Assembly (NCBI GenBank): GCA_014360825.1
Contig: JACIWT010000001.1
Coordinates: 186,001 to 250,000, forward strand
From: Chloroflexota bacterium
Lineage (GTDB): Bacteria > Chloroflexota > Anaerolineae > UBA2200 > JACIWT01
Direction: 5' to 3'
Length of the DNA stretch: 64,000 nt
Shown: piece after piece, positions 33,645 to 49,623 of the stretch
Numbering within the stretch: the first letter of the stretch is position 1
Layout: the number at the start of each line of letters is the position of its first letter
Translations under genes and position numbers: made by a program
The notes under the pieces: model-generated
Told to the model about the DNA's origin: nothing
Database searches by the model: none
The model's input: only the letters and a program-made list of their open reading frames with translations

Positions 33645-33647
33645 ATA

Positions 33648-33863
33648 TCATCGCTGCGTTAACCTCACGGCGATCACCATTCCCATCATGATGAGAGCAC
33701 CGACCGTGGCGAAGGCGAACACTGTGCTTGGGCGTAGTCCCTGTTTGTGTGTGCCTTCCAACGTGTAGTCTACCGCTGGGCCCGCGGCAGCAATGAAACT
33801 GCCGGCCAGAGCCCCTCCAATGGCTGCCCAAAACAACTGCCAGAGCCAGTCCCGTGCATTCAC
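33648..33863 (-). CDS. Small membrane protein coupled to DUF1786 gene
   Basis: A 71-residue protein with two hydrophobic segments (about 8-30 and 46-66; LFWAAIGGALAGSFIAAAG and FAFATVGALIMMGMVIAV). The GTG start overlaps the stop of the upstream DUF1786 gene as GTGA, a usual sign of translational coupling. I recognise no family. It ends four bases before the convergent M42 gene. Confidence 0.55.
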   Translation of the reverse strand: MNARDWLWQLFWAAIGGALAGSFIAAAGPAVDYTLEGTHKQGLRPSTVFAFATVGALIMMGMVIAVRLTQR

Positions 33864-34915
33864 AGCATCCCCTCGCCTATGCTCAGCAATCGCCTGGTCG
33901 CTGCCACTAAACCGAAGGCACCGGAAAGCATCATATCACCATAGGGCACAGCCATGTAATAGCCTAGGCCGCGCGCCATTGCCCGGTTGGGGCCGGTGAC
34001 AGCGACGCGATTGAAGCCACCTGGGTATTCCTCATGTATGAAAGCACCGTGCCCGCCATCAGTGTAAACCTCTTCGTTCGTGAGCGCTCCCTCTTGCAGA
34101 CGTGCTACTAAATTGGCCAATTTCTCCGGTTTCACCAATACGGTATGGTGCTCGAAAAGGCCCCATATTCGTTCTCTCTGAACCAGTGCACCTAACACGT
34201 GTTGGTTTCCGACATTGAGAATTACCAAGCCCTCGTCTCGGTGAGCGGAAACCTGTTCGTCACACAGCGCTCCCCAGATGGCAGCGGCGCCCGTATCCAT
34301 TACGATGGCGCCAGGTGCATCTTCTTGGACGGCGCACATACGCGTGAACTGGGCGGGTGGTTTGCGGTAAGCCAGTTTCTCTAACCGGCCGCCACCCTCT
34401 ATGAATTCACGCCAGAGTTGGAAACGAAATCGGCGATTGCTGCCGCTTAAACATTCGCCATGATCCTGCACGGCAATCGCGATGGTGTCCGGCAATGTTA
34501 CATCGAAGGGAGTCAACACTGTCTGCAAAAGGGAGAGATCCACATCGCGGGTTTCCAACACAACCACGTTACCTGGTGGCGGCGCATCCACAATCTCTAT
34601 GCCGTAGGCACGCACTTGTTCGGGGTTATTGCGGATCGTCTTGGCAGCGCGAGGTGTAGCAAAGGCACGGAACCCGGCGCGGATGTGGCGCTTCAGGGCA
34701 CTGACACAAGGCCCGCCACCCATCAGGTTGCCTGTCAGGAAAACGTCACATCCCTCGCGGGTGGCCCTTTCGATACGCCGCGCCAAAAGGGTGGTCGGCG
34801 AAGGCAGAACCAATTTGATGTTATTCTCCATGGGCTGCCTTGCTTGGTATAACAAGATATCCTGTGTTCCCGCACCTATATCTATAGCCAGAATGGTATC
34901 GGCTGCCCCGGTCAT
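33860..34915 (-). CDS. DUF1786 family protein
   Basis: A 351-residue protein with an ASKHA-like beginning, ILAIDIGAGTQDILLY, and phosphate-loop-like segments VMDTGAAAIWGAL and VAVTGPNRAMARGLGYY. These match DUF1786, sometimes labelled putative pyruvate formate-lyase activating enzyme; there is no radical SAM motif here, so that label is not supported. The fold suggests an actin/Hsp70-type ATPase or pseudo-ATPase. The ATG at 34915 follows GAAGGAC; a start 21 codons upstream lies in the flavodiiron gene and lacks a site. It follows a flavodiiron protein gene by 31 nt and is probably in its operon. Function unknown. Confidence 0.75.
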   Translation of the reverse strand: MTGAADTILAIDIGAGTQDILLYQARQPMENNIKLVLPSPTTLLARRIERATREGCDVFLTGNLMGGGPCVSALKRHIRAGFRAFATPRAAKTIRNNPEQVRAYGIEIVDAPPPGNVVVLETRDVDLSLLQTVLTPFDVTLPDTIAIAVQDHGECLSGSNRRFRFQLWREFIEGGGRLEKLAYRKPPAQFTRMCAVQEDAPGAIVMDTGAAAIWGALCDEQVSAHRDEGLVILNVGNQHVLGALVQRERIWGLFEHHTVLVKPEKLANLVARLQEGALTNEEVYTDGGHGAFIHEEYPGGFNRVAVTGPNRAMARGLGYYMAVPYGDMMLSGAFGLVAATRRLLSIGEGML

Positions 34916-34946
34916 ATTTAGTCCTTCTCCATTTGGTCCTGCCGAA

Positions 34947-36128
34947 CTACTGGATTTCAGCGGCGATCTGGCGCCCAAACTGGCGGGCTTTCTCTAGTTC
35001 TGCAGCGCTTGGTACTAATTTGGCTCGCACGGCTTCCACAGGCACCTTGAGTCGGAGGCTACTAAGGCGATCCTCGATCATTTTCGTTGCTTCACCACTC
35101 CAGCCATAGGAGCCGAAAGCCCCGCCGATCTTGCCACGTAATCTGATAGTCGCCAGGCTCGCCAGGAAGCGCCACACTGGTGCGACTGCGTCACCATTGA
35201 TAGTGGGTGAGCCAACAAGCAAAGCCTGGGCCTGCTCCACCATGTCCGTCAGCAGGCTCATATTCAGATCCTTTGCTGCTAAGTCCACTAGGTTAACCAT
35301 TACCCCGCTTTCTCTTAGTCCCTCTGCGATGGCCTCTGCCAAGGACCTGGTGTTACCATAGGCACTCACAAATGCAATGACAGCACGCTTGCCGTCCAGT
35401 GGCTCGGTGGCCCACTGAACGTACCTTTCGTAGTATGACCAGGGGTCTTTTCGCAACACGGGCCCGTGCGATGGGGCAATGATTTTGATATCGAAACCCT
35501 TGATTTTGGCTAACGCGTCGCGCATCTTCTCTTTGAAAGGGCGCATGATAGTTTGAAAATAGTACTCGAACTCACCATTGAAGTCGTCTACCAGGTCGTT
35601 GAATAGACGCGGGTCGTAGAAATGACAGCCAAAAACGTCGCAGGGGAAAAGGACACCCTCTTCTACCAAGTAGGTGAACATAGTATCGGGCCAGTGTAGG
35701 AAGGGAGCGAAAACGAAGCGCAGCGTCTTGCCACCCAGATCAATAGTGTCGCCATCGTCCATTTTTAGTGGGTTCAACTCGCGATTGACAATATTGTTGA
35801 CATATTGCTCGCCAGTTTTGGATACTACAACCTTTGCCTGAGGCGCGCTCTCGAGGAGAGTTGCCAATGCACCGGTGTGGTCTGGTTCCATGTGGTTGAG
35901 AATGATATAGTCAATGGATGCCGGGTCTATGAGGGAACGAACGTTGTCAAGATACTCTTGGGCAAAAGGGGCTTTGACAGCCTCGATGATGGCTGTTTTC
36001 TCCCCGCGCACCAGGTAGGAGTTATAACTCGTGCCCCGCTTGGTTTCCATAATGATATCGAACACGCGCAGGTCTGGATCAAAGACGCCGATCCAATCCA
36101 CACTATCCGTAATCCTTATCGTGCTCAT
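34947..36128 (-). CDS. Flavodiiron protein (FprA family, O2/NO reductase)
   Basis: A 393-residue A-type flavoprotein. The metallo-beta-lactamase-like domain (1-245) carries the diiron ligands in NHMEPDHTGAL (H-x-E-x-D-H), the Asp in FPCDVFGCH and the His in APSHGPVLR. The flavodoxin domain (about 250-390) has AFVSAYGNTRSLAE and GSPTINGDAV for FMN. These enzymes reduce O2 to water or NO to N2O with electrons from rubredoxin, which is encoded next door. ATG 36128 is preceded by GGAGGATGGTC; a start 16 codons upstream is less likely. Confidence 0.95.
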   Translation of the reverse strand: MSTIRITDSVDWIGVFDPDLRVFDIIMETKRGTSYNSYLVRGEKTAIIEAVKAPFAQEYLDNVRSLIDPASIDYIILNHMEPDHTGALATLLESAPQAKVVVSKTGEQYVNNIVNRELNPLKMDDGDTIDLGGKTLRFVFAPFLHWPDTMFTYLVEEGVLFPCDVFGCHFYDPRLFNDLVDDFNGEFEYYFQTIMRPFKEKMRDALAKIKGFDIKIIAPSHGPVLRKDPWSYYERYVQWATEPLDGKRAVIAFVSAYGNTRSLAEAIAEGLRESGVMVNLVDLAAKDLNMSLLTDMVEQAQALLVGSPTINGDAVAPVWRFLASLATIRLRGKIGGAFGSYGWSGEATKMIEDRLSSLRLKVPVEAVRAKLVPSAAELEKARQFGRQIAAEIQ

Positions 36129-36254
36129 TGACCATCCTCCGTCTCGAATAATACCGTGTTCCTTCTCTGCAAGCAAGATTGGCGCGACGGGTATTGCAAC
36201 TTGTCGCGCCAGATCGTGGGATCTATTAGATTGTTCTCTGCAGCGATGCAGATG

Positions 36255-36422
36255 TTACTTCACCTTCTCGAACATATCCTTGCTGGCACCGCACTGAGGG
36301 CATACCCAATCGTCAGGTAGTGCCTCGAAAGGCGTGCCGGGCGCTACCCCATTCTCCGGGTCGCCCTTGGCCGGGTCGTAGATATACCCGCAGGCCAGAC
36401 ATTCCCACTTCTCCATTGCCAT
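36255..36422 (-). CDS. rub: Rubredoxin
   Basis: A 55-residue protein, too short for many gene finders, starting [15 protein letters not shown]. The four iron-ligand cysteines form CLAC and CPQC pairs (C-x2-C at residues 8-11 and 41-44), with the usual [18 protein letters not shown] segment between. Rubredoxin carries single electrons to flavodiiron proteins and rubrerythrin, whose genes flank it. GGAGGAATTCAAG precedes the ATG. It lies between the flavodiiron and ferritin-like genes on the same strand. Confidence 0.95.
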
Positions 36423-36494
36423 CTTGAATTCCTCCAGAATTGGTTTCGTGGGCGGATTGAATACCTATTGGCAGTTTGGTCCGCTCCGCTTTGC

Positions 36495-36962
36495 TCAGAA
36501 TTCCTTGTAGACGATCTCTTCATACAAGGTCTCGACCTTGTTCTTGTGTTTCATCTCCTCGTTCGCCAACCAAGTAAAGAGGTTCCTGACCGCCTGATCT
36601 TGTGCGACCTCGCTCATAGCAGTGTAGAAATCATAGGCGTTCTTCTCGCGTTTCGCTGCTACTGTCAGCACGTCTTGGAAGTCTGCGTCTTCTCGCAGCG
36701 GCTGGGGCACCAAATAATCACTGATCTTAAGGTCGGTTACCTTCTCCTTGTGTCCACGTACTACCCAGGTGACACCCCTGGCGAGCAGGTCTTCGAGTTT
36801 GGCTTTGTGGGTTAGTTCCTCACCTGCTAATTCCTCTAACAGTACCCGTGACGGGGTGGATTTCACCATCTTCGCCGCTTGGGTATAAAGGGCGTTGGAT
36901 TCCTCCTCTCGCTTAATGGCAGTTCGCAGTAGTTCCTCTATGTTCCTGATATCCCCTTGCAT
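36495..36962 (-). CDS. Ferritin-like diiron protein (rubrerythrin-related)
   Basis: A 155-residue four-helix protein. Candidate metal ligands lie in IKREEESNALY, ELAGEELTHKAKL, AAKREKNAYDFY and LANEEMKHKNKVE, two E-x-x-H-type pairs as in rubrerythrin-like ferritins. The C-terminal rubredoxin domain of true rubrerythrin is missing. It may act as a peroxidase or in iron handling. It is within the oxygen-defence cluster, between rubredoxin and rubrerythrin, and AAAGGAGAAAGGCC precedes the ATG. Confidence 0.85.
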   Translation of the reverse strand: MQGDIRNIEELLRTAIKREEESNALYTQAAKMVKSTPSRVLLEELAGEELTHKAKLEDLLARGVTWVVRGHKEKVTDLKISDYLVPQPLREDADFQDVLTVAAKREKNAYDFYTAMSEVAQDQAVRNLFTWLANEEMKHKNKVETLYEEIVYKEF

Positions 36963-37077
36963 GTTGGCCTTTCTCCTTTCTTGTACAAAAGCGTTTTGGC
37001 GTCCGCCTCCGGGGCAGGCTGGAGCTTAGGTCTATAGCCCAGCCTACTAAAAGAACGCACTTTCACAACTCAGCCGC

Positions 37078-37584
37078 TTAGAAGCCGACGAATTTCTCCC
37101 TTCTTGCCTTGCAGATAGGGCATACCTCCGGTGCTTCGTCGCCCTCGGCAGTATGTCCGCAAACACTGCAGATCCAGATTTTTCCGATGGCGTGATCCTT
37201 ACCGCCCTGCACTGCCTTTTTTGCCTCGCTGTACCAGACAGCATGGATCTTCTCTGCCTCCCAGGCCCACCTGGTTGATCGTTCGGCCTCGCCTTCGCCT
37301 TGGAACTTGGCTATCTTGTTGAACACGGGGTACATTTCGTTGATTTCGTAAATCTCGCCGTCAACACCAGCCTGGAGATTATCAGTGGTGGTCTGAATGC
37401 CTCCCAAGGCGCGGTAATGGTTAGTGGCATGTACTTGTTCGGCATAGGCAATGGCGCGGAACATCCGGGCCACATTGGGCAGGCCTTCACGCTCGGCTTT
37501 GTCGGCGAAGATTAGGTAACGCATATGGGCTTGACTCTCACCGGCAAAAGCCTCCCTCAAATAATGCTCTGTCATTTGACGCAT
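37078..37584 (-). CDS. rbr: Rubrerythrin
   Basis: A 168-residue peroxide-reducing protein. The ferritin-like domain (REAFAGESQAHMRYLIFADKA; AYAEQVHATNHY; AERSTRWAWEAEKIHA) is followed by a C-terminal rubredoxin domain with ICSVCG and VCPICKA (two C-x2-C). Rubrerythrin reduces H2O2 with electrons from rubredoxin. The ATG at 37584 is spaced 9 nt from AGGAGG; an ATG 24 nt upstream would overlap that site. It lies 29 nt downstream of the Fur-family regulator gene and is probably co-transcribed with it. Confidence 0.95.
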   Translation of the reverse strand: MRQMTEHYLREAFAGESQAHMRYLIFADKAEREGLPNVARMFRAIAYAEQVHATNHYRALGGIQTTTDNLQAGVDGEIYEINEMYPVFNKIAKFQGEGEAERSTRWAWEAEKIHAVWYSEAKKAVQGGKDHAIGKIWICSVCGHTAEGDEAPEVCPICKARREKFVGF

Positions 37585-37613
37585 AGGTATGTTCCTCCTT
37601 TCAGCCAAAATGG

Positions 37614-38030
37614 TTATTTATTGTCGCTGGCCTTTTGCTCTGTCAACTGACAGGACGGACAAAGGCCGAGGAAAATGACATCGTGGTCATCAACTGTGAA
37701 ATCTGTATTTTGGGCTGCACGTGCTTCCAACCCGGTGAACCGGGCGCAATCTACATCACCGATGGCCCCACAGCGGTGGCAGACGACGTGGTAATGCTGC
37801 TCCGTACGAGCGTCATAGTGCGCTATGCTTGGATCACAGCGCAACTCACGGACCAGGCCCGCGTTGCATAATAGTCTCAGGTTGCGGTACACCGTGGCGA
37901 TGCTGATGCGAGGTAATGTGTGACGCACGTGCTCGAATATCCAATTGGCATCGGGATGGTTCTCCGTGCCTCGCAGCACATCCAAGATAGCACGGCGTTG
38001 AGAGGTCATACGGAGCTCGCCGCGCTGCAA
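37614..38030 (-). CDS. Fur/PerR-family metalloregulator
   Basis: A 138-residue regulator: winged helix with MTSQRRAILDVLRG and ISIATVYRNLRLL, the metal segment HYDARTEQHYHVVC, and two zinc C-x2-C pairs (CHRCG, CPSCQ). PerR-type peroxide sensing is suggested by the rubrerythrin neighbour, Fur-type iron sensing by the operator sequence; the residues seen do not decide. The TTG at 38030, with AAAGGA nine bases before, is the preferred start. The frame is open to 38105, but that stretch is the promoter and Fur box, so an ATG start there would fall upstream of the transcription start. Confidence 0.88.
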   Translation of the reverse strand: MQRGELRMTSQRRAILDVLRGTENHPDANWIFEHVRHTLPRISIATVYRNLRLLCNAGLVRELRCDPSIAHYDARTEQHYHVVCHRCGAIGDVDCARFTGLEARAAQNTDFTVDDHDVIFLGLCPSCQLTEQKASDNK

Positions 38031-38056
38031 TTTGTCTGATCCTTTGTCATTGAAAA

Positions 38057-38105
38057 TGATAATCATTATCATTCTTATGATAGCACAAGATGCGAAAAAT
38101 GTCAA
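38057..38105 (-). promoter_or_regulatory. Consensus promoter with a perfect Fur box over the start site
   Basis: Minus strand: TTGACA (38100-38105), a 17-nt spacer and TATCAT (38077-38082). Just downstream lies TGATAATCATTATCA on plus (38057-38071), an exact 7-1-7 Fur-family operator covering the predicted start of transcription. This fits autoregulation of the fur/perR gene and control of rubrerythrin and perhaps the rest of the block. Confidence 0.85.
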
Positions 38106-38152
38106 ATGCCGCTGGTGTTCCGTTTGGATGATAACGCGAGGAGAGATCGGTT

Positions 38153-39433
38153 ATGACATCCGCTGTCCTTGAGCCTGCTTCGGCTGGGTTGGCTTTGACA
38201 AATCTTCGGAAGCAGGATTATAATCGTTTCACCTGGGCAAGGCAGTTGTTGAGGGCAAGGAGGATCGTGAGCACCAATGAAGTGTGGGTGCTGATTATGG
38301 CTGGCATCCACAGTGGCGATGAAGCCGTGAATATGGTCGCCGGGGCTCGACAGGCCATCACTCTCGACTTAGTGGAGCGCGCTTTGGCCATCCCCGGCGT
38401 CGATCACGTATTAGTCAGCACCAACTCCCCCGCGCTGGCCGAGCGACTGAGTACTTATCCCGTTATCATAGAAATGGATAGCGCAGGCGAAACTTTCCAC
38501 TTCGGTAAACGCCTGCGCGATTTGGTGTGCCGCCACCACATGAAACGGGTATTTTACCTGGGCGGCGGCAGTGGTGCACTGCTTAATCCAGGACAGATGA
38601 CGCACATTATAGATGACCTGCGCCGTGGTGAGCAGGTGCTCATCACCAACAATTTCTATTCCACAGATTTTGCTGCCTTCGCCCCAGCGACAGTGTTGGA
38701 GTCCGTTGCCCCTCCTGCTAACGACAACGATTTAGGCTGGACGCTGGGTGAGCATGCCGGATTGCCTAACCGTTCGCTCCCCCGTTGTGCTGCTACATTG
38801 CTGGACGTGGATACACCGACTGACTTGATGACCATAGCCTCTCATCCTGGAGTTGGCCCTCACACCCGCGCGTATTTGGACTCTCTCGCCCTGGACCTAA
38901 GCCATATCCAACGAGCGATGGCCGTTTTTGTGGATCGAGAGGCCGAGGCCATCATAGCTGGGCGGGTTGGAGCAGAGACATGGGCTTATCTGGAACGCGA
39001 GACGGCCTGTCGCACCCGCATCTTTGCTGAGGAACGCGGTATGCGTGCCAGTGGGAGATTGGCGCAGGAGAGGGTTCGCTCCCTTCTGGGGGAATATCTG
39101 CGGTTGGTGGGGGCAGAGCGCTTTTTCGAAGCATTGGCTTGGATGGGCCAGGCTGCGTTTATTGATAGCCGCGTGATTTTCGCCCACTTGGGAGTGTGGC
39201 CCCCCGCCGCCGACCGTTACAACTCTGATCTGTTGCGCCCAGAGCGCATTGCTGACCCGTTCGTTCGTGAATTCACGGCAGCGGCAATCACAGCCCCGAT
39301 TCCTGTGGTGTTGGGAGGACATTCGCTCGTGTCGGGGGGGCTCTACGCACTGGTTGAGGCAGCATGGGCGCATTCCGGGGTGAATGTGCCGCGCTACGTG
39401 GACCACACTATTTGGGAACAACCGGGGCACTGA
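38153..39433 (+). CDS. Unknown protein with nucleotidyltransferase-like N-terminus
   Basis: A 426-residue soluble protein. Residues about 45-230 have the feel of a nucleotidyltransferase/GT-A fold (VLIMAGIHSGDEAVNMVAGARQA, VDHVLVSTNSPALAERL, VFYLGGGSGALLNPGQM, ATLLDVDTPTDLMTIA), reminiscent of MobA/CofC-type enzymes in layout but without their GGxSxRMG signature. The C-terminal half is helical (WAYLERETACRTRIFAEERG), then PVVLGGHSLVSGGLY. I cannot assign a function. The ATG follows GAGGAGAG. It ends 57 nt before the SHMT-GcvT fusion on the same strand, so they may be co-transcribed. Confidence 0.6.
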   Translation: MTSAVLEPASAGLALTNLRKQDYNRFTWARQLLRARRIVSTNEVWVLIMAGIHSGDEAVNMVAGARQAITLDLVERALAIPGVDHVLVSTNSPALAERLSTYPVIIEMDSAGETFHFGKRLRDLVCRHHMKRVFYLGGGSGALLNPGQMTHIIDDLRRGEQVLITNNFYSTDFAAFAPATVLESVAPPANDNDLGWTLGEHAGLPNRSLPRCAATLLDVDTPTDLMTIASHPGVGPHTRAYLDSLALDLSHIQRAMAVFVDREAEAIIAGRVGAETWAYLERETACRTRIFAEERGMRASGRLAQERVRSLLGEYLRLVGAERFFEALAWMGQAAFIDSRVIFAHLGVWPPAADRYNSDLLRPERIADPFVREFTAAAITAPIPVVLGGHSLVSGGLYALVEAAWAHSGVNVPRYVDHTIWEQPGH

Positions 39434-39490
39434 TCGAATTACCGTATTCTCGGAGCCTTGGACTAAACACTTTAGGAGGTGAGTTTGCTC

Positions 39491-42400
39491 ATGGCTGAAG
39501 GTGATTACACCGATTTTTTCAATCTGGACATTTCTGAAGCGGATCCGGCGACAGATCTTATCATTGGCTTTGAGGAGGAGCGCCAAGCACGGCAGATCAT
39601 CCTCATCCCCAGTGAAAGCCTGTGCCCGTTGGCTGTGCGTCAGGCTCTGGGCTCGGTCTTCAACAATGTTTATGCAGAGGGCTATCCGCCCTTGCGCATG
39701 ACCCGCGACGATGAAGACCTTCTTTTGGACTTCGGTCACCAATTGGCCTACTATCGTCGCTATGCGGACCGGCGTTTCTACAAGGGCGTGAATTACGTAC
39801 ATTTCGTAGAAACGCTGGCGGGACGCCGCGCCGCCGAGGCCTTTGCCACACGCACTGTCCCCGCAGACCGCATCTATGCCAACGTACAACCGCTCTCCGG
39901 TGCGGCAGCCAACTTGGCTGTGTACAACGCTTTCTTGCAGGACGGCGATACCCTTATGGGGATGGATCTTTTCCAGGGTGGGCACCTAACCCATGGTAGC
40001 CCGTTCAATCTGTCAGGCCAACGCTACCGCGTCGTCTCCTATGGTGTGGACCGGCGTATAGAGCGGCTGGACTATGATGCTATCCTGGACTTGGCGAAGG
40101 CTCACCGACCCAAAATGATCGTCGCTGGCTACACCTCTTACCCTTGGGCTCCTGATTGGGCAGCCTTTCGGCAGATCGCCGACGCAGTGGGAGCATTACT
40201 TATGGCCGACATCGCTCACACTGCGGGGATGGCCATCGCCGGTGTGTATCCCAACCCCATTGGTTATGCTGACATCGTTACCTTTACCACGCACAAGACG
40301 CTGATGGGCCCCCGCGGCGCGATTATCTTGACCACGGACGAGGAGAAAGCCAAACGGATTGATGCTGCGGTCTTCCCTGGGGAGCAAGGCGGCCCACACA
40401 CCAATAAATTCGCTGCGATGTGCGTCATGTTTGCCATCGCCCGTACTGAGAAATTCCGGCGCCTTCAGAAGCGTATCGTGGAGAACGCAGTGGCCCTAGC
40501 CGAAGCGTTCCAAAAACGAGGGATACGGGTTCCCTATGGGGGGACAAACACGCATCTGCTCTTAGTAGACGTCAGCGCTGTGCCGAGCAAGACTGGCTTC
40601 CCTTTGCGCGGCGAGATCGCAGCCCGCATCTTGGAACTGGCGGGCATCATCGTGAACAAAAACACCATCCCAGGTGACGAACTCACCGCTTTGGGCAGCG
40701 GTATCCGCATGGGTACACCCTGGGTATCGCAGCGAGGCATGACCCCCGCGCACATGGATCGTCTAGCTGGGATCATCACTGAGGTGGTAACAAATATCCA
40801 GCCTTTCTCTTATCGCGGGCTCTTGGGTGAACTTCCGCGTGGTAAGATTGACCTCGATCTACTGGAGCAGGCCAAGCGTGACGTGGACGCCTTGGTCGCC
40901 GAAGTCAAAGCCGAAACCCAAAACCGTGGTACCGGTTACCCTCACTACACTATCACCTCAACGGATTCAGAACGCGCTCGTCTGTTCTTTTCAGGAGAGG
41001 GAGATGAAGAGCAAGCCATCCAGGCAACAAAGATGGGTGCTGCAATCATTGACACCAGCGACGCTGGCGTGTTGCTGCTAAGCGGGTGGCGTGCACAACC
41101 TTTTGTTCAACAAATTACGACTGCCAGTGTGGCGGTTCTCGAACCCGGTCAGGCGCTTGAGAGTTTCATGTTGAAGGGCAACGGCGCGGTGTTGGATGAT
41201 ATTACAATCATTCGCTTAACTCGTGATGAGCGAGGTCGCGATCGTTACCTCGTTGTTACGAACCCGGAAAATACAACCCGGGTAACTGCTTGGTTGCGTG
41301 GCCTGGCCGATGGCTACACCTTGTTCGACCCCGACGATCTCTTCCGCAAGGTAGATGGTCCCGTTGTGGTCTGGGATATGGGCACTTCTGAAGTTAAAGA
41401 CGAGGCCCGGTTGGTCACCTTGCAGTTGGTGGGACCGAAGTCAGCGGAGGTGCTGCACAGGCTATGCCCTCATTGCCCTGCTATCGGGAAGGGTCAAGTC
41501 TGGCATGGGGAACTGGCCGAAACACCGGTTATTATTGTGGGACAGAGCCATGGATATCTCCTACTTGGCCATCCAGACTTGTTAGATCAAGTATGGAACG
41601 CGTTCATCGGTGCTGGGGCAGAGCCTGGGGGACCTATTACGCGCAAGATGTTGCGCACAGCTGCGGGTTTGCCAATCTACACGCTGCGAGGTGAAGACAA
41701 TAGGCCCTCTGGGAGAGACATGCACCGCAACGGCTTTGCCAGTCGTTTTTCGCTAACAAAGCCTTATTTCATTGGCCAGAGTACTCTGCGTGAATTGGCG
41801 TCGCCCGCTAACAAAGAGGTATTTGTCTGGAATGCTCCGCAAGATGTGCCACTCAAGCGTACGCCGCTTTACGAGTGGCACAGTGCCCACACCCGCAAGA
41901 TCATCCCATTCGCCGGGTGGGAGATGCCAATCTGGTATAGCAGCCTGGCTGAGGAGCACGAGGCAGTACGCAATGCTGCTGGCCTATTCGATGTCGCCCA
42001 CATGGGTGTGTTGGAGGTGAGTGGCCCCCATGCGGCGAGTTTCTTGGACACTGTTTTCACTAACTATGTCCGTTGGATTGAAGATGGCCAGTCGCTCTAC
42101 GGTTACCTGATGGATCCCGACGGGCGGTGCATGGACGATGTCATGATCTATCGCCGCGCTTCAGATCGCTTTCTCCTTGTGGTGAATGCTGTCAACGCCG
42201 AAAAGGATTTGGCTTGGCTGCAGGCGGTGAACTCTCGGCATTACCTGATTGACCGCGAATACCCAGCCCGCGAGGTCGAGGCGCAAGTGACCATCCGTGA
42301 TCTCAAGGATCCCGCCTCTAACACCGCTCGGCGCATAGATATCGCACTCCAAGGACCGAATTCATTGGCTATCTTGCAGCGCTTGGCCTCTAATGCCAGC

Positions 42401-43111
42401 GCCAGGCGCGATCTAGCGACTATCGCCCGGACAGAATTCGTGGAAATGCCCCTGGCGGGTATGGATCTAATCATAGCGCGCACGGGCTACACTGGCGAAG
42501 AGATAGGATATGAACTCTTTGTTCATCCCGATGAGGCCCTGCACCTATGGGAACTGCTCCTGGAGAAAGGTGCTTCGTTGGGTATCCGACCCTGTGGCCT
42601 GGCAGCACGCGACTCAACGCGTATCGAGGCGGGGTTGCCGCTCTACGGCCATGAACTTGCCGGTGACTATGGCATCGTGCCCGCTGAGGCTGGCTTCGCA
42701 CCCTATGTCAAGTTCCATAAGCCCTTTTTCATCGGGCGCGCCCACTGCATTCGCCAAGAGATGGAAAAGACCATGGAGGTCGTTCGCTTCCGGGTGAGCG
42801 AAGCCGGGGTCCCCGCGGTGCGCCCAGGGGACCCGGTAGTCAATAAGCGTGGCCACTATATTGGGCGCGTGACAAGTGCGACGTTGGTGCGAGGTTACCA
42901 GATTGGCATGGCCTACGTAGAAAAGCGCTACAACCAGGCCGGGACGCCACTCGCTATCTTCCCTCAATCGCTGAGTAAAGGCAGCGGCGGAAAGCCAGTG
43001 GAGGCTTTGACAGTAGGCGATCGCGTGGCTTTGCCGGTCGAGGCTACCGTGCTGGAGCGCTTCCCACAGCCGGAAGAAAAGTTGACCTGGCGTTTGCCAG
43101 GTGAAGAGTGA
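39491..43111 (+). CDS. glyA-gcvT: Triple fusion: serine hydroxymethyltransferase, degenerate GcvT-like domain, aminomethyltransferase GcvT
   Basis: A 1206-residue single frame. Residues 1-470 are SHMT (VQPLSGAAANLAVYNAF, MGMDLFQGGHLTHG, PLP Lys269 in TTHKTLMGPRG, NKNTIPGDE). Residues about 490-780 resemble a GcvT/YgfZ fold (IIDTSDAGVLLLSG, LQLVGPKSAEVL, LRTAAGLPIYTLRGED, KPYFIGQSTLRE) but lack most folate-site residues. Residues 785-1206 are a full GcvT (PLYEWHSAH, IPFAGWEMPIWY, LFDVAHMGVLEVSG, RTGYTGEEIGYELF, ARDSTRIEAGLPLYGHEL). SHMT and GcvT both make 5,10-methylene-THF, so the fusion may couple glycine cleavage to serine synthesis. The ATG at 39491 lies ten bases after AGGAGG; a GTG at 39479 overlaps that site. 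Confidence 0.93.
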   Translation: MAEGDYTDFFNLDISEADPATDLIIGFEEERQARQIILIPSESLCPLAVRQALGSVFNNVYAEGYPPLRMTRDDEDLLLDFGHQLAYYRRYADRRFYKGVNYVHFVETLAGRRAAEAFATRTVPADRIYANVQPLSGAAANLAVYNAFLQDGDTLMGMDLFQGGHLTHGSPFNLSGQRYRVVSYGVDRRIERLDYDAILDLAKAHRPKMIVAGYTSYPWAPDWAAFRQIADAVGALLMADIAHTAGMAIAGVYPNPIGYADIVTFTTHKTLMGPRGAIILTTDEEKAKRIDAAVFPGEQGGPHTNKFAAMCVMFAIARTEKFRRLQKRIVENAVALAEAFQKRGIRVPYGGTNTHLLLVDVSAVPSKTGFPLRGEIAARILELAGIIVNKNTIPGDELTALGSGIRMGTPWVSQRGMTPAHMDRLAGIITEVVTNIQPFSYRGLLGELPRGKIDLDLLEQAKRDVDALVAEVKAETQNRGTGYPHYTITSTDSERARLFFSGEGDEEQAIQATKMGAAIIDTSDAGVLLLSGWRAQPFVQQITTASVAVLEPGQALESFMLKGNGAVLDDITIIRLTRDERGRDRYLVVTNPENTTRVTAWLRGLADGYTLFDPDDLFRKVDGPVVVWDMGTSEVKDEARLVTLQLVGPKSAEVLHRLCPHCPAIGKGQVWHGELAETPVIIVGQSHGYLLLGHPDLLDQVWNAFIGAGAEPGGPITRKMLRTAAGLPIYTLRGEDNRPSGRDMHRNGFASRFSLTKPYFIGQSTLRELASPANKEVFVWNAPQDVPLKRTPLYEWHSAHTRKIIPFAGWEMPIWYSSLAEEHEAVRNAAGLFDVAHMGVLEVSGPHAASFLDTVFTNYVRWIEDGQSLYGYLMDPDGRCMDDVMIYRRASDRFLLVVNAVNAEKDLAWLQAVNSRHYLIDREYPAREVEAQVTIRDLKDPASNTARRIDIALQGPNSLAILQRLASNASARRDLATIARTEFVEMPLAGMDLIIARTGYTGEEIGYELFVHPDEALHLWELLLEKGASLGIRPCGLAARDSTRIEAGLPLYGHELAGDYGIVPAEAGFAPYVKFHKPFFIGRAHCIRQEMEKTMEVVRFRVSEAGVPAVRPGDPVVNKRGHYIGRVTSATLVRGYQIGMAYVEKRYNQAGTPLAIFPQSLSKGSGGKPVEALTVGDRVALPVEATVLERFPQPEEKLTWRLPGEE

Positions 43112-43123
43112 AGATAGAACAGG

Positions 43124-43155
43124 AGTCGAGGGGCACCGAAAGGTGCCCCCCGACT
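43124..43155. terminator. Strong hairpin between convergent gcvT fusion and gcvPB
   Basis: AGTCG plus GGGGCACC pair with GGTGCCCC plus CGACT around a GAAA loop, 13 bp with one mismatch. No clear T-run follows on plus; a mixed TCT-rich stretch follows on minus. Confidence 0.6.
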
Positions 43156-43186
43156 GTTGAGGCCCGCACGAACAGGCTAATGCAAC

Positions 43187-44665
43187 TCATTCTCCCGGCT
43201 TCCAGCGGAGGATTGGCTGGCGTGCTGCCCGTACCTCGTCTAAACGCGAAACCGGGGTGACATGAGGCGCAGATCGAAGCAACTCTGGCTCTTCTTTGGC
43301 TTCCCGCGCGATCTCAATCAGTGCCTTGGCGAAAGCATCCAATGTTTCGATGCTCTCGGTCTCCGTCGGCTCAATCATCAGCGCTTCGGGCACGATGAGC
43401 GGGAAGTAAATTGTGGGCGGGTGGAAGCCGTAATCTATTAGTCGTTTGGCGATGTCCACCGTGTGTATGTCTGGGGCATCGGGTAATCTGCCGGATAGGA
43501 CAAATTCATGCATACACACTCGGTCGAATGGCAGCGGATAAACTGCCTTAAGTTTGGTCCGCAGATAGTTGGCGTTAATAACGGCGTTCTCGCTGACTTC
43601 ACGCAGGCCTTCTGCACCCATCATGCGGATGTAGGTATAGGCTCGCACTAAAACGCCGAAGTTGCCGTAGAACGATTTCACCCGCCCGATGCTCTGCTCA
43701 GGTTCCCTGAAGAAGTAGTGCCAGTATTCTTCTGTCTCGCCACCCTCTTCCTCTTTTACCTCCACCTTTTCGCGGTCCACGATCGGCCCTGGCAGAAAAG
43801 GTTGGAGCGCCTTCGAGACGCCGACAGGCCCTGCTCCAGGCCCACCCCCACCATGGGGCGTAGAGAAAGTCTTGTGCAGATTGAAATGCATTACGTCAAA
43901 GCCCAAGTCGCCTGGCTTGACGATACCCATAGTGGCGTTCAAGTTGGCCCCATCACCGTAGAGCAATCCACCGCAGCCATGCACCAATTCGACGATCTCT
44001 TGCACGTGTTCGTCGAAGAGCCCAAGGGTGTTGGGGTTGGTGAGCATCAACCCGGCTACCCGTTCATCGCAGTGAGCCCGCAGGTGACGCAGATCGACAT
44101 TCCCCCGTTTATCGGACCTGATTTCCACGCATTCATAGCCGCTCATAGTGGTGGAGGCGGGGTTCGTGCCATGAGCCGAATCTGGGATGAGCATGATGGT
44201 GCGGTGTCCCTCGCCCCGGGAACGGTGATAGGCACGGATCATCAGCACGCCCGTTAGTTCTCCATGCGCTCCGGCGGCCGGTTGCAATGACACTGCCGCG
44301 AATCCGGCGATCTCTTTCAGAAACTCTTGGAGCAGATACATTAGATGCAGGTTCCCCTGCACTGTCCAATGATCCTGGTAAGGGTGGGTGCGAGTGAAAC
44401 CGGGAAAACGGGCTGCCACCTCGTTCACCTTGGGGTTGTATTTCATTGTGCATGAACCAAGCGGGTAGAAACCGGTGTCCACGCCGTAGTTCAGTTGCGA
44501 GAGCCGGATGTAATGGCGAATGAGATCCACTTCACTCACTTCGGGGAGTGGCAAATCTTCGCGCAGATATTCGTCTGGAAGTTCGGTCTCTGGCACATCC
44601 AGCTCGGGTAGCGAGAAAGCCTTGCGCCCTGGGCGGCTGATTTCGAAGATCAATGGTTCAGTCAT
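43187..44665 (-). CDS. gcvPB: Glycine dehydrogenase (decarboxylating) subunit 2
   Basis: A 492-residue PLP protein, the second half of the P-protein. Motifs: [36 protein letters not shown] and the PLP Lys in [18 protein letters not shown]. With GcvPA it decarboxylates glycine and loads the aminomethyl group onto lipoylated GcvH. The ATG at 44665 overlaps the gcvPA stop as ATGA, with GGAGGAGG upstream; a start 23 codons earlier is therefore rejected. It is the last gene of the minus-strand operon, convergent with the GcvT fusion. Confidence 0.96.
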
Positions 44666-46014
44666 GAGCCCACCTCCTCCAATGCGGTGACCAGGTCCTC
44701 GATTTCCTCCATGGAGTTCATTTCTGTCACGCACAGGAGCATGGAATCTTGCCAGTTTGGATTTAGCGAACCCAGGTCATAACCGCCGATAATGCTATAC
44801 ACGTCTAGCAGATAGTTGTTGATCTCGGCTGCTGGCAGCGGGCAACGCACGACGAACTCTTTGAAGAAGGGCTTGTGGCCCTGTATTTCATAACCCTCGA
44901 TCTGGGCGATACGCCGGGCTGCGTAATGGGCCTTGTGGTAACACAGTTCCGCTACCAACCGCAAGCCGGAGCGGCCCAACGTGGCGAGATAGACACCTGC
45001 AGCCAGTGCCATCAATGCTTCGTTGGAGCAGATATTAGACGAAGCTTTCTCGCGGCGAATGTGTTGCTCGCGCGCGGAGAGTGTGAGCACGAAGCCGCGC
45101 CGCCCCTGAGTGTCTACGGTCTGGCCTACCAGTCGTCCAGCCATTTTGTGCACGTATTTCTCGCGGCAGGCGAAGTAGCCCAAATAGGGTCCGCCAAAAT
45201 TTAGGCCACCGCCCAACGATTGCCCCTCGCCCACTACGATATCTGCGCCGTAATCGCCTGGTGCTTTGAAGAGACCCAAAGCGATGGGGTCAGCGCTAAC
45301 TACAAACAGGCCGCCCGCAGCATGGACCGCATCGGCAACTGCCTGCAGGTCGGCCGGGTTCTCCAGGGCCCCAAAGAAATCTGGCACCTGCACGATCAGA
45401 CAGCAGGTGTTCTCGTCAACTAAAGCCGCTAGATCAGCCAGAGAATGGTCGTAGTCATCATCGCCCACAATATCCAGTTCCATGCCTTGGGTGTAGGTGC
45501 GCACCACGGCCCGATACTCGGGATGGATACTAGGCGAGAGGATGACTTTGCGGCGCTTGCCTCGCCCTACATTCACCGCCATAATCACTGCCTCGGCCAT
45601 AGATGTCGCCCCATCGTAGTGCGAGGCATTGGCTACTTCCATGCCGGTGAGGACGCAAATCATGCTCTGATACTCGAAAATGGTCTGCAATGTTCCTTGG
45701 CTGACCTCGGGCTGGTAAGGGGTGTAAGCGGTCAGAAACTCGGAGCGAGAAAGGACGTGGTTCACCGTGCTGGGCACGAAATGGTTGTAGGCCCCTGCGC
45801 CCAGGAAACAAGCAAAATGGTCCAAATCAGCATTCATTTCGCTGATGGACTGCAATTCTTGTAAGATCTCCATCTCGGAGAGCGGCGGAGGCAGATTCAG
45901 TGATGGATAGCGCAGCTCTTTGGGGATGTCGGCGAAGAGCCTGCCGACATCCCTTACGCCGATGGCGTGCAGCATGGCTTTGCGGTCAGCATCGGTGTTT
46001 GGAATATATGGCAT
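44662..46014 (-). CDS. gcvPA: Glycine dehydrogenase (decarboxylating) subunit 1
   Basis: A 450-residue first half of the split P-protein, beginning [19 protein letters not shown] with [29 protein letters not shown] and [19 protein letters not shown], all characteristic of GcvPA. Split GcvPA/GcvPB is common in Gram-positive and thermophilic lineages. It starts immediately after the gcvH stop and overlaps gcvPB by 4 nt, so the three are tightly coupled. Confidence 0.96.
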
Positions 46015-46419
46015 CTAATGCCCTCCCTTCGCGGCCTGCTCCTCACAGATTTTGCGATAGGCCTCGGCGTCGAGAAGGTCGTCGTACTCGCTGGGGTTGG
46101 ATACCTCGATCTTAACGAACCAGCCTGCGCCGTATGGGTCCTGGTTCACAAGTTGGGGAGAATCGGCTAGCGCTCCATTCACAGCGATGATCGTCCCGCT
46201 CATGGGCATATACACATCCGAAGCAGCCTTGACCGATTCAACGGTGGCGAAAACCTCGCCTTTCTGGAAGGTATCACCAACTTCCGGCAACTCGACATAG
46301 ACCACATCGTTGAGTTCTTCCTGAGCGTAGTCGCTGATGCCAATGGTGCCCTCCTTGCCTTCCAGTCGGATCCATTCATGGGATTCGAGATACTTCACGT
46401 CTTTGGGATATTCGGCCAT
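46015..46419 (-). CDS. gcvH: Glycine cleavage system H protein
   Basis: A 134-residue lipoyl carrier. The lipoyl-attachment Lys64 lies in TVESVKAASDVYMP, preceded by TIGISDYAQEELNDVVYVELP. GcvH shuttles the aminomethyl group from GcvP to GcvT. It lies directly downstream of two radical SAM genes that resemble LipS1/LipS2, which could build its lipoyl group in place. AGGAGG precedes the ATG. Confidence 0.97.
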   Translation of the reverse strand: MAEYPKDVKYLESHEWIRLEGKEGTIGISDYAQEELNDVVYVELPEVGDTFQKGEVFATVESVKAASDVYMPMSGTIIAVNGALADSPQLVNQDPYGAGWFVKIEVSNPSEYDDLLDAEAYRKICEEQAAKGGH

Positions 46420-46479
46420 GTGACTGTTCCTCCTTCGTGTATCTTTGAGATATTATACCTCTATGTTCTCACTAACCGC

Positions 46480-47460
46480 TTATTGGTTGTTGCTTGCTGC
46501 CACTATCTCCACTGCCTCTTTTGCTTCGTCTGCTCTCAATGGGCGAGGGTAGTTGTAAGGTATATGGCCCGGTCGCTCATTGTAATAGGGACGGTTGCAG
46601 CCAGGACACCCAATGGTCTGGAATGCGAGCCCATCGGCCAGCCAATTTTGCAGTGTGTCACTGTCCACGCCGAACGAGACCACTCTCCCATCTGCGCTGA
46701 AACGATAGTCTTCCAAACGACGCAAACCACGCTGCAGGAGATGATACGCGGCTTGTATACGGCGATAACTCGCCAATGAGGGTGGCTCGCGGCCAGCCAT
46801 GGCCGTGCCCACCAGTGGGGTGAATGCGAATAGTCCCACCGTGACGCCCCAATCCACCATCTCTTGTAGTCTGGCGAGCATCTCTGCCTCTGTCTCGCCC
46901 AGACCCACGATCAAGTGGGTCCCAATGTGCCCTGGAAAGTTCTTAGCGGCGCTTTTCAACAGTGCTAGCTGTTTGGACCAGTTGCCCCCTCGGACGATGT
47001 GATACACTCGCCGGCAGGCTGCGTCCAATGCCAGGGTCACTCGCTCTGCTCCGGCATCTAATAGCGCTTGTACCTCCTCTAAGTCGTGCACGTGTATCGC
47101 CGTGCAAATGGGCGCAAGTGTGGATTCTCGGATGCTCTGCACTAGCACTATCGTTCGTTCCAGGTACCCTCGTTTGACCGGGACTTGTAGGCACACCCGC
47201 TTGACAGGCGCGTTAGCAAGGGCGGTGAGAACTTCGTGAGTCGGGTAGGATGGCCAGATCACCCGCGACAGGGCATCGGCGCGGGCAGTGCTCTCCCGTG
47301 CCTGAGCACAGAAAGCACAGTTCATGATACACCGATTACCTACCAGCAGGTACGCGGTGGTGGGCAATGTCTCGGTCCGCAGATGGCGCAGCCCCAACAC
47401 TGCTGCCGTGCCCAATGAAACGCCCACGCGCCCGTTTTCCCCTCTCACAACACACAACAC
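46480..47460 (-). CDS. Radical SAM protein, LipS1-like lipoyl synthase component
   Basis: A 326-residue radical SAM enzyme with CIMNCAFC (C-x3-C-x2-C) near residue 44. A C-terminal motif CPGCNRPYYNERP (about 286-298) could ligate an auxiliary cluster. It resembles the biotin synthase-like half of the two-protein lipoyl synthase LipS1/LipS2, described in archaea and some bacteria, in which two radical SAM proteins together insert sulfur into octanoyl carrier protein. Its position between a second radical SAM gene and gcvH supports this. No classical LipA is in the window. The GTG at 47460 overlaps its own ribosome site; a GTG at 47448 is an alternative start. Confidence 0.78.
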   Translation of the reverse strand: MLCVVRGENGRVGVSLGTAAVLGLRHLRTETLPTTAYLLVGNRCIMNCAFCAQARESTARADALSRVIWPSYPTHEVLTALANAPVKRVCLQVPVKRGYLERTIVLVQSIRESTLAPICTAIHVHDLEEVQALLDAGAERVTLALDAACRRVYHIVRGGNWSKQLALLKSAAKNFPGHIGTHLIVGLGETEAEMLARLQEMVDWGVTVGLFAFTPLVGTAMAGREPPSLASYRRIQAAYHLLQRGLRRLEDYRFSADGRVVSFGVDSDTLQNWLADGLAFQTIGCPGCNRPYYNERPGHIPYNYPRPLRADEAKEAVEIVAASNNQ

Positions 47461-48314
47461 TCCTCGGCCCAGCGCACGCGCAGACCTAGCCGTTCGGCTT
47501 CACGTTGTGCAGCGGGAGCAGGATTGACAATGCGGTTTATCCCCGCTCGCACGGCTAGAGGGTCCAATGCGCTACGGTAACGCCCGCCAGGTCGCATGCA
47601 ACCCAGGTAAATAGGCATCTCTGGGAACATCTCCCGCGCGGTCAAAAGCAATTTCACTACGTCCTCAATCGCAGGCGGCTGACGATTCGCATAGCGCGTG
47701 CCCGGCGTGGGAATGAAGACCAGGAAAACAATGGCCTCGGCCCCGAGTTTTTCCAAAGTCAACAGGGCCGGCAGTTCGTGACCCAACTGTCCACCACGCA
47801 AGCCTATTATGATGTGGGGTACTACGCGGACGTAGCGACACAGCATCTTGTAAGTGTGGAGGTAAGCCTCTACACCGCAATCGAGACCGTACACTTCCTG
47901 GATAGTCTCCTCGTCACCTATCAGATCGAAGGATACTATATCAACCAGGGGGGCGATTGCCTGTGCCTCCTCCTCGCCGATCAAGCCAACATGCCAGTTC
48001 AGGCGATGCCCTGGGCGCAAACGAGCAACGTCATCGAGATGATTCGCAACAGGCACCCGGCCCAAGTGGTCACACCCGCCAGAGATGAGAAAGCTCGTTG
48101 CGCCATTTGGTAGAACCCGGCTGATAGGCGTCATAGCGCGCAGGTAGTGTCCACCACAGTGGGCACAGTTTAGCGCACAATAGGCACCAGTCAGGCTCAC
48201 AGCGATAGTTCGCCTGGGTTGGTGGAAGATGATCTCAGTAGGAAGGGCCTTCGCGCGAGCGCGCCATGCATTTGCCCTTTGAGCCGCGCGATCTGCGTCT
48301 GCCGCTGAATCCAT
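47445..48314 (-). CDS. Radical SAM protein, LipS2-like lipoyl synthase component
   Basis: A 289-residue radical SAM enzyme with CALNCAHC (C-x3-C-x2-C) near residue 46, a glycine-rich SAM strand FLISGGCDHLGRVPV and a C-terminal Cys pair (EECCVL). It overlaps the next radical SAM gene by 16 nt, and the two precede gcvH. This pairing is what is expected of LipS2/LipS1. Which protein inserts which sulfur cannot be read here. It follows a 121-residue unknown gene by 13 nt. The start shown is the furthest ATG; the N-terminal 20 residues are alanine-rich and may be overextended. Confidence 0.76.
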   Translation of the reverse strand: MDSAADADRAAQRANAWRARAKALPTEIIFHQPRRTIAVSLTGAYCALNCAHCGGHYLRAMTPISRVLPNGATSFLISGGCDHLGRVPVANHLDDVARLRPGHRLNWHVGLIGEEEAQAIAPLVDIVSFDLIGDEETIQEVYGLDCGVEAYLHTYKMLCRYVRVVPHIIIGLRGGQLGHELPALLTLEKLGAEAIVFLVFIPTPGTRYANRQPPAIEDVVKLLLTAREMFPEMPIYLGCMRPGGRYRSALDPLAVRAGINRIVNPAPAAQREAERLGLRVRWAEECCVL

Positions 48315-48327
48315 CGTCTTCGATCGC

Positions 48328-48693
48328 CTATTGGATTACATCTGAGGCCGTGATATAGAGATCGCCGGCCTCCTTGGTTTGGGGAATGATAGTGAGTTGG
48401 TGTGTCCCAGAAGTGAGGGGTCCGGCGCTGACGCGGACAGTGACCACATCGTTGAGAGCGAAAGTGAGAGGATTCTTGGCAGAAATGTCGGAGATTGCGA
48501 TCTCGCCCTGTGGCCCAACCAGACGAATGGCGTCTGGGGGATACGCTGTATTGTCCACCTTGAGCCCCGCAAGGCCAATGATAGTGCCGGTAGCGAGAGT
48601 GTTCTTGAGTCGGAATTCGAATCCTCCCTCGACATTCGCCAGGCTACCAGACACATAGAGTTTCTTGAGTAGAAAGGAAGGTACGGTGGTCAC
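48328..48693 (-). CDS. Unknown small beta-rich protein heading the lip-gcv operon
   Basis: A 121-residue protein that I do not recognise. Predicted strands alternate with turns (FLLKKLYVSGSLANVEGGFEFRLKN, GTIIGLAGLKVDN, IRLVGPQGEIAISDI, VVTVRVSAG, HQLTIIPQT), suggesting a beta-sandwich. There is no signal peptide. The GTG at 48693 is chosen because AAAGGAGGAAAATCT precedes it. It is the first gene after a promoter and lies 13 nt before the LipS2-like gene, so its product may serve lipoyl assembly or glycine cleavage; that is inference from position only. Confidence 0.65.
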   Translation of the reverse strand: MTTVPSFLLKKLYVSGSLANVEGGFEFRLKNTLATGTIIGLAGLKVDNTAYPPDAIRLVGPQGEIAISDISAKNPLTFALNDVVTVRVSAGPLTSGTHQLTIIPQTKEAGDLYITASDVIQ

Positions 48694-48732
48694 AGATTTT
48701 CCTCCTTTTGTGTGCATAAGGCTCACGATTTA

Positions 48733-48761
48733 AGTATACCACATTGGCTTGATGAAAGCAA
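48733..48761 (-). promoter_or_regulatory. Predicted promoter of the lip-gcv operon
   Basis: Minus strand: TTGCTT (48756-48761), a 17-nt spacer and TATACT (48733-48738) with a TGG just before it, an extended -10. The start codon at 48693 is about 35 nt downstream of the expected transcription start. No glycine riboswitch is present. Confidence 0.55.
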
Positions 48762-48833
48762 GGGGGAGAACCGGAGGATGCAGACCTAATCATCTCCAGG
48801 TGGTTGAATCTGTGTTGTTCGTTCGCTTGGTCT

Positions 48834-48861
48834 TTGCCATTTTCCCACTCTGCGCTATAAT
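48834..48861 (+). promoter_or_regulatory. Predicted promoter of the PHP gene
   Basis: TTGCCA (48834-48839), a 16-nt spacer and a perfect TATAAT (48856-48861), 35 nt before the ATG. Confidence 0.6.
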
Positions 48862-48896
48862 CTCGGCGCATTCACAGAAAGGTTGACAAACGCGAC

Positions 48897-49601
48897 ATGG
48901 ATTGGGAAGGGAAACGCATAGACCTACATACCCACACCACTATTAGCGATGGGGTGCTGTTGCCCAGCGAGTTACTTCGTCGCGCTACCGTTCTGGGCTA
49001 CGGCGCGGTAGCTATCACCGACCACGCCGACAGTTCCAATTTAGAGGAGGTGCTGCGCGCCCTCTTGCGCCTTGCTGTTGAGCAGGGCGGGGATTACCCC
49101 CTCGTCTTCCTACCCGGTGTCGAACTCACTCATGTCGCCCCACCCAGTATCCCACGGCTGGCACACCGGGCCCGTGAACTGGGTGCTGCTGTAGTGGTTG
49201 TGCATGGCGAGACGCCTGCCGAACCCGTTGCTCCTGGCACGAACCGGGCTGCTGTTACCTGCCCAAATGTGGATGTACTGGCTCATCCTGGCCTGATCAG
49301 CATCGAAGAGGCGCGGTTGGCAGCGGAGAATGGCGTGTATTTGGAGATCACCTCGCGCCAAGGACATTGCCTGGGCAATGGTCATGTAGCCGCCTTGGCT
49401 CGCGCCACTGGAGCCAAGATAATTGTGAACACTGACACTCATCGTCCCAGTGATATGATGAGCCAGAACCAGATCCGCACCGTGGCCGAAGGGGCCGGGC
49501 TTTCTTCGGAGGAGATCACCGCTGCTTTAGTGACTAATCCATCTGAATTGATCGTTTCCGCATGCGCCCGCCTCAACGAAACACGAGTTAAAATTAAATA
49601 G
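48897..49601 (+). CDS. PHP-domain phosphoesterase (histidinol-phosphatase-like)
   Basis: A 234-residue PHP protein with metal-ligand motifs RIDLHTHTTISDG, AITDHADSS, PGVELTHV, VVVVHGET, VLAHPG and VNTDTHRPSD. These are the expected ligands of a trinuclear PHP site. The family hydrolyses phosphoesters such as histidinol phosphate, but no his genes are close, so the substrate is unassigned. It is followed after 22 nt by the CpXC gene on the same strand. Confidence 0.88.
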   Translation: MDWEGKRIDLHTHTTISDGVLLPSELLRRATVLGYGAVAITDHADSSNLEEVLRALLRLAVEQGGDYPLVFLPGVELTHVAPPSIPRLAHRARELGAAVVVVHGETPAEPVAPGTNRAAVTCPNVDVLAHPGLISIEEARLAAENGVYLEITSRQGHCLGNGHVAALARATGAKIIVNTDTHRPSDMMSQNQIRTVAEGAGLSSEEITAALVTNPSELIVSACARLNETRVKIK

Positions 49602-49623
49602 GGAAGAGAGGAAATCGTCTACA

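Follow-up and report, generated by a model that had tools for sequence, protein, structure and literature searches.

A serine hydroxymethyltransferase and T-protein joined in one chain in Anaerolineae, probably a bifunctional enzyme tethered by a retired T-protein copy

Serine hydroxymethyltransferase (SHMT, GlyA) and the T-protein of the glycine cleavage system (GcvT) have long been discussed as partners coupled via methylene-tetrahydrofolate (methylene-THF) in serine synthesis from glycine, in photorespiration and in the reductive glycine pathway. Among multidomain enzymes, dimethylglycine oxidase is a known precedent for channelling; in this enzyme, as in sarcosine oxidase alpha and trimethylamine N-oxide demethylase, a GcvT domain lies behind another enzyme that makes a one-carbon (C1) unit for folate. 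Here we describe a gene that places SHMT itself in that position. It lies on a 64,000-nt stretch of contig JACIWT010000001.1 (assembly GCA_014360825.1; hereafter the window) from a Chloroflexota bacterium of the class Anaerolineae (UBA2200, JACIWT01), and encodes an SHMT, a decayed GcvT-like middle domain and a GcvT in a single protein. The three multidomain enzymes named above were all matched in our searches, but their N-terminal enzymes are not SHMT (in the oxidases they are flavin-dependent) and no decayed GcvT copy stands in between. We consider it probable, from sequence, that the fusion protein is an active bifunctional SHMT/T-protein of the glycine cleavage system, with a retired T-protein copy serving as tether. 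The component families are all known, while the three-part chain is apparently undescribed: no description of the SHMT-GcvT fusion, the SHMT insertion or the internal GcvT duplication reported below was found in the literature searched (PMC12827605 included), a search that had most subscription journals and UniProt/InterPro outside it, and no annotated fused copy occurred among the best plasmid matches. Chains of this kind are probably already present in sequence databases, filed under the name of one or the other enzyme.

The fusion gene (39491..43111, + strand) translates as a single uninterrupted frame of 1206 residues with one stop at its end, and its ATG lies 10 nt downstream of a Shine-Dalgarno-like AGGAGGT (39474..39480, +). 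Profiles and alignment delimit an SHMT domain (residues 1-480; 39491..40930, +), a middle domain (residues 490-786; 40958..41848, +, defined also by profile comparison and its match to PF01571) and a GcvT domain (residues 787-1206; 41849..43108, +, for which a structure-model match was also obtained). The preliminary description of this DNA had proposed a complete SHMT, a complete GcvT and a second GcvT-like domain in one frame, and the Pfam and NCBIfam matches bear this out. Pfam returned SHMT at 4.1e-112 and GCV_T at 5e-102, the latter over two stretches; the protein scored 421 bits with PRK00011 (cut-off 335) and 375 with PF00464 (cut-off 27), and as a whole 367 with PRK00389 (cut-off 300) and 320 with TIGR00528 (cut-off 236), the best stretch for these GcvT profiles being the C-terminal domain. 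Both enzymes thus exceed curated cut-offs, and both keep their catalytic residues.

The SHMT domain resembles other members of its family (GlyA, PF00464) in fold family, pyridoxal phosphate (PLP) lysine and catalytic residues, and is about 40-47% identical to bacterial SHMTs with crystal structures. Among the positions probed in the B. stearothermophilus SHMT structures, Y51, E53, Y61, H122, D197, H200, K226, N341 and R357 (in that numbering) persist in essentially every relative covering them; in the numbering of the fusion protein, the conserved set includes K269, the PLP lysine, together with E63, Y61, Y97, H165, D240, H243 and R406, the catalytic Glu, Tyr, His, Asp and Arg of SHMT. The domain departs from ordinary SHMT in a charged 26-residue insertion beside the folate pocket, a different C-terminal segment, the replacement of F351 by Ala and the attached GcvT domains. 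The C-terminal domain is equally complete as a T-protein (GcvT, PF01571), with a full-length fold, the catalytic Asp and the folate-site residues, and differs from standalone T-proteins in sitting on an SHMT chain and in an insertion of roughly 17 residues. Essentially every relative with coverage there retains D96, the catalytic Asp, and the folate-site residues Y83, Y100, N112, Y188, E195 and R227 (T. maritima numbering, assigned from T-protein structures), and the fusion protein itself has the catalytic D883 and all of Y870, Y887, N899, Y1000, E1008 and R1040. In a full-length AlphaFold2 model built on a 30-row alignment (predicted local distance difference test, pLDDT, 85; predicted template modelling score 0.85), the GcvT domain matched the T. 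maritima T-protein 1wos with a Z of 43.7 and a root-mean-square deviation (rmsd) of 1.8 A over 356 residues.

The fusion is the only SHMT and the only GcvT (GCV_T) protein in this 98%-complete genome and, if the assembly is representative, must therefore supply both functions. The rest of the glycine cleavage system, as the preliminary description had noted, lies convergently next door on the minus strand: gcvPB, glycine dehydrogenase subunit 2 (43187..44734; 752 bits, cut-off 441), gcvPA, glycine dehydrogenase subunit 1 (44662..46014; 610 bits, cut-off 364), and gcvH, the lipoyl carrier protein (46015..46419; TIGR00527, 165 bits, cut-off 116). The gcvH-gcvPA-gcvPB set also lies near the fusion in six relatives (L035, L040, L042, L043, L046 and L048), and gcvPB in a seventh (L056); one clear dihydrolipoyl dehydrogenase gene (lpd) is found elsewhere in the genome. 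Because the SHMT and GcvT domains share the 5,10-methylene-THF/THF pair, the chain would link the interconversion of serine and glycine to the glycine cleavage system, whether this runs towards cleavage or towards glycine synthesis. Together with GcvP, GcvH and dihydrolipoyl dehydrogenase, the chain could convert two glycines to serine, CO2 and NH3; in the opposite direction it might be fed from the C1 pool of a Wood-Ljungdahl methyl branch. Such a branch appears to be present, as contig C6 of the same genome (L136, 10222-19037, and L137, 24-9748) carries a Wood-Ljungdahl cluster with a MetF-like reductase, FchA, FolD, FTHFS and CODH, and with genes whose translations we take to be AcsB, AcsD, AcsC, MeTr, RACo and CooC. 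The host is most likely a Wood-Ljungdahl anaerobe, in which methylene-THF would join the methyl branch, glycine cleavage or synthesis, and serine formation, in either net direction. The genome contains no serine deaminase of PF03313, which leaves a reductive glycine route via this enzyme unsupported.

The sequence itself shows the domain composition, the intact active sites, the single copies of both enzymes, the linkage in the genome, the shared ancestry and the internal duplication; from these we infer both activities, the tether role and any net direction. Three observations weigh against an active bifunctional enzyme of this kind. Many genomes hold the fusion together with an ordinary SHMT, so the fusion does not serve as housekeeping SHMT in every case. 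Among the relatives of the SHMT domain, Phe mostly replaces Y60, Thr replaces S172, and Ala mostly replaces F351, a THF-contact residue; on account of the first and last of these changes, THF handling may differ from that of ordinary SHMT. Finally, the SHMT part of the model could not be superposed as one body on SHMT crystals (19-20 A rmsd), so the placement of domains in the model was left unused and the model could not decide on channelling.

On profile evidence, the middle domain arose from the fused GcvT by internal duplication. Taken alone it matches PF01571 at 4.8e-25 (88.7 bits, cut-off 25.6) over positions 31-237 of 255, and scores 68.9 bits with PRK00389, under the curated cut-off of 300; in alignments it is devoid of the N-terminal GcvT segment and of the C-terminal barrel. 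Its nearest profile by hhalign is that of the fused GcvTs (337 over 270 columns, vs 238 over 239 columns for standalone GcvTs), and it has an insertion (residues 607-628) in common with the fused GcvT (about residues 914-936; 42230..42298, +, located by profile comparison), where the standalone GcvTs compared show a gap. Profile comparison was used here in place of a tree combining the middle and GcvT domains, in which GcvT had been taken for the middle domain in several rows (zero-length pairs such as L131, L130, L029, L113 and L122) and many branches were long; a model of the middle domain built without an alignment reached a pLDDT of only 35 and was discarded. The preliminary description had called this domain degenerate and GcvT/YgfZ-like, with most folate residues lost; its descent from GcvT and the folate-residue loss hold, and the affinity to YgfZ is not supported. 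YgfZ and IBA57 share the remote GcvT-like fold, and the KPYFIGQ motif of the middle domain (residues 757-763; 41759..41779, +), kept in long and short forms of the fusion, resembles as KPYFxGQ the YgfZ signature KGCYxGQE. The motif has no Cys, which the signature form KGC[YF]xGQ(E) includes, and no YgfZ model appeared among NCBIfam and Pfam matches up to E 10, a search whose filters drop weak matches. A YgfZ origin was rejected on these grounds and on the closer relationship to the fused GcvT.

Relatives matching over the full length at 55-66% identity occur elsewhere in the class, in further genera and families, and public contigs of Anaerolineae, Thermoflexales and other Chloroflexi metagenome-assembled genomes carry the same architecture. 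In a survey of 200 sampled genomes of the class, each at least 90% complete and scored for the fused lineage when its best match fell below 1e-100, the range of that lineage, about 118 carried it by best E-value, some of them as split genes or broken at contig ends; the remainder had ordinary SHMT and GcvT only, or no match. Other families of the phylum also have the fusion, and outside the phylum it is sporadic, being found in 4 of 118 genomes of Thermodesulfobacteriota, two of which were known beforehand. A copy from Desulfarculaceae (L042) looks like a real horizontal transfer, because its 51-kb contig has gcvH-gcvPA-gcvPB immediately before it and its genome holds an ordinary SHMT as well, while a Pirellulales contig (L045) may be mis-binned, since it is short and is placed among Anaerolineae in both the SHMT and GcvT trees. 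The fused SHMTs group in a single clade (SH-aLRT 100) that excludes ordinary SHMTs, including those of the same genomes, and the fused GcvT domains likewise group in one (SH-aLRT 100). By these phylogenies and the survey, the fusion has one origin, is old and has been retained in most of its lineages. In several genomes (G015, G050, G054, G036 and others) two different fusion copies were seen, some as one long and one short, which suggests an old duplication or a transfer within the class.

One family (f5) departs from this pattern. Several of its genomes have a frame of 591-666 residues that combines SHMT with the N-terminal half of the middle domain, and other members keep the fusion; two of the split SHMT proteins (L104 and L105) stop right after a GPVxV motif. 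The separate GcvT gene comes directly next in G046 and is on another contig in G009; by locus, it neighbours the SHMT gene in L105 and sits on another contig as L107. Since the split SHMTs nest within the fused clade, these genes are best read as secondary fissions, and the notion that covalent linkage is strictly needed is not supported.

Tolerance of fission in this family favours an alternative to which we give slightly less than an even chance: that there is no channelling at all, the fusion only fixing stoichiometry and co-expression, with the middle domain acting as a spacer and methylene-THF exchanging via the bulk pool. In other bacteria, glyA and gcvT already occur as separate neighbouring genes (plasmid examples). 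Conservation, moreover, is low in the second half of the middle domain: among long forms, mean pairwise identity falls from 65% in SHMT and 64% in the GcvT core to 44% in the first half of that domain and 29% in its second half. On the other hand, the age and retention of the fusion are not easily reconciled with so passive a role, and certain features of the middle domain and the SHMT are invariant. Conservation in the middle domain peaks at residues 601-628 (WLRGLADGYTLFDPDDLFRKVDGPVVVW; 41291..41374, +, from the alignment of relatives), a stretch that includes W601, F612, D613, D616, K620, G623 and P624, which along with G762 are identical in 39 of 39 relatives. Together with an SHMT insertion of invariant length, these motifs suggest more than a passive spacer.

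That insertion (residues 67-92; 39689..39766, +), which the preliminary description had overlooked, is found by alignment only in SHMTs of the fused lineage, and is the basis of a more speculative proposal that we think rather unlikely, namely that an Arg-rich loop beside the folate pocket holds the polyglutamate tail of the folate and favours transfer between the GcvT and SHMT sites by channelling or electrostatic guiding. It lies between the catalytic E63 (in YAEGYP) and the folate-side Tyr pair positions F96/Y97, and has the same length of 26 residues in 50 of 50 fused-lineage SHMTs (46 fused, and 4 split or broken) and in none of 14 others (13 from the phylum, and that of B. stearothermophilus). 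An Arg/Lys cluster (R89, R90, R94, R95 and K98) occupies its end and the residues just beyond: R90, D93 and R95 are invariant (50/50), R89 and K98 are present in 47/50 and 44/50, and residues 86-98 include 4-6 positive residues in nearly all members of the lineage. Position and charge make the insertion a candidate folate guide, and a better candidate for a conduit than the middle domain. Its persistence in the secondarily split proteins argues against a guiding role, and the loop may serve only to stabilise the SHMT dimer or to bind the middle domain. A fuller version, no more probable in our judgement, would have the Arg-rich insertion, positioned by the retired T-protein duplicate, hand polyglutamate-held methylene-THF between the glycine-cleavage and serine-forming sites, thereby coupling both reactions in Wood-Ljungdahl anaerobes.

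The preliminary description had suggested that the middle domain could itself be a folate-channelling or docking module. As a conduit, it would bind methylene-THF or guide it from the T-protein to the SHMT site, sparing the C1 unit any release on the way. The domain does sit between both enzymes and descends from a folate-binding domain, and the equivalent of the T-protein catalytic Asp is present in 21 of 22 long forms. But the equivalents of Y83, Y100 and Y188 (T. maritima numbering) are lost in all, those of E195 and R227 are kept in only 11 of the 22 long forms, and the invariant residues fall outside the folate-site set. Moreover, whereas the middle domain is nearly complete in the long forms (about 1200 residues, the window protein included), the short forms (about 1050-1130 residues) are missing the stretch equivalent to residues 640-750, about 120 residues that make up its second half, and have the Asp in 7 of 17; the secondary split, too, falls right after the first half-domain. 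With key folate residues lost and half of the domain dispensable, the middle domain cannot be a general folate conduit, and we regard the conduit reading as very improbable. By its conservation the domain fits a tether or docking surface and not a folate site, a structural tether being the likelier role for a copy retired from catalysis after internal duplication. An assembly join or missed stop codon as the source of the fusion was rejected and has a negligible probability, as a search of related genomes recovered the architecture in dozens of independent assemblies across the class, including the single-contig genomes G032 and G159, whose SHMT-bearing frames are 1070 and 1074 residues long.

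Several further features accompany the locus. Directly behind gcvH-gcvPA-gcvPB, a two-protein lipoyl synthase is encoded on the minus strand by LipS2 (46480..47460; 356 bits, cut-off 270) and LipS1 (47445..48314; 292 bits, cut-off 230), and a LipS2 relative adjoins gcvH in L035. A perfect hairpin, GGGGCACCGAAAGGTGCCCC, at 43130-43149 lies between the convergent fusion gene and gcvPB and is possibly a shared terminator; an Rfam scan of positions 33000-52000 detected neither a riboswitch nor any other RNA. Immediately 5' of the fusion, 38153-39433 (+) encodes a 426-residue protein with no Pfam or NCBIfam match, and relatives of this protein also precede the fusion in L035 (51%) and L048 (37%). 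A cluster of oxygen/peroxide-defence type at 33860-38105 (-) comprises a flavodiiron-like protein, two rubrerythrins and a Fur-family regulator, with a DUF1786 protein adjacent.

From a functional perspective, these genomes offer a natural single-chain SHMT/T-protein, spread over a bacterial class and constituting the only SHMT and T-protein of some of its members, which makes the question of channelling testable with one protein. The short-form, long-form and naturally split versions provide built-in controls, and the fusion represents a ready-made part for engineered C1 assimilation through glycine and serine.

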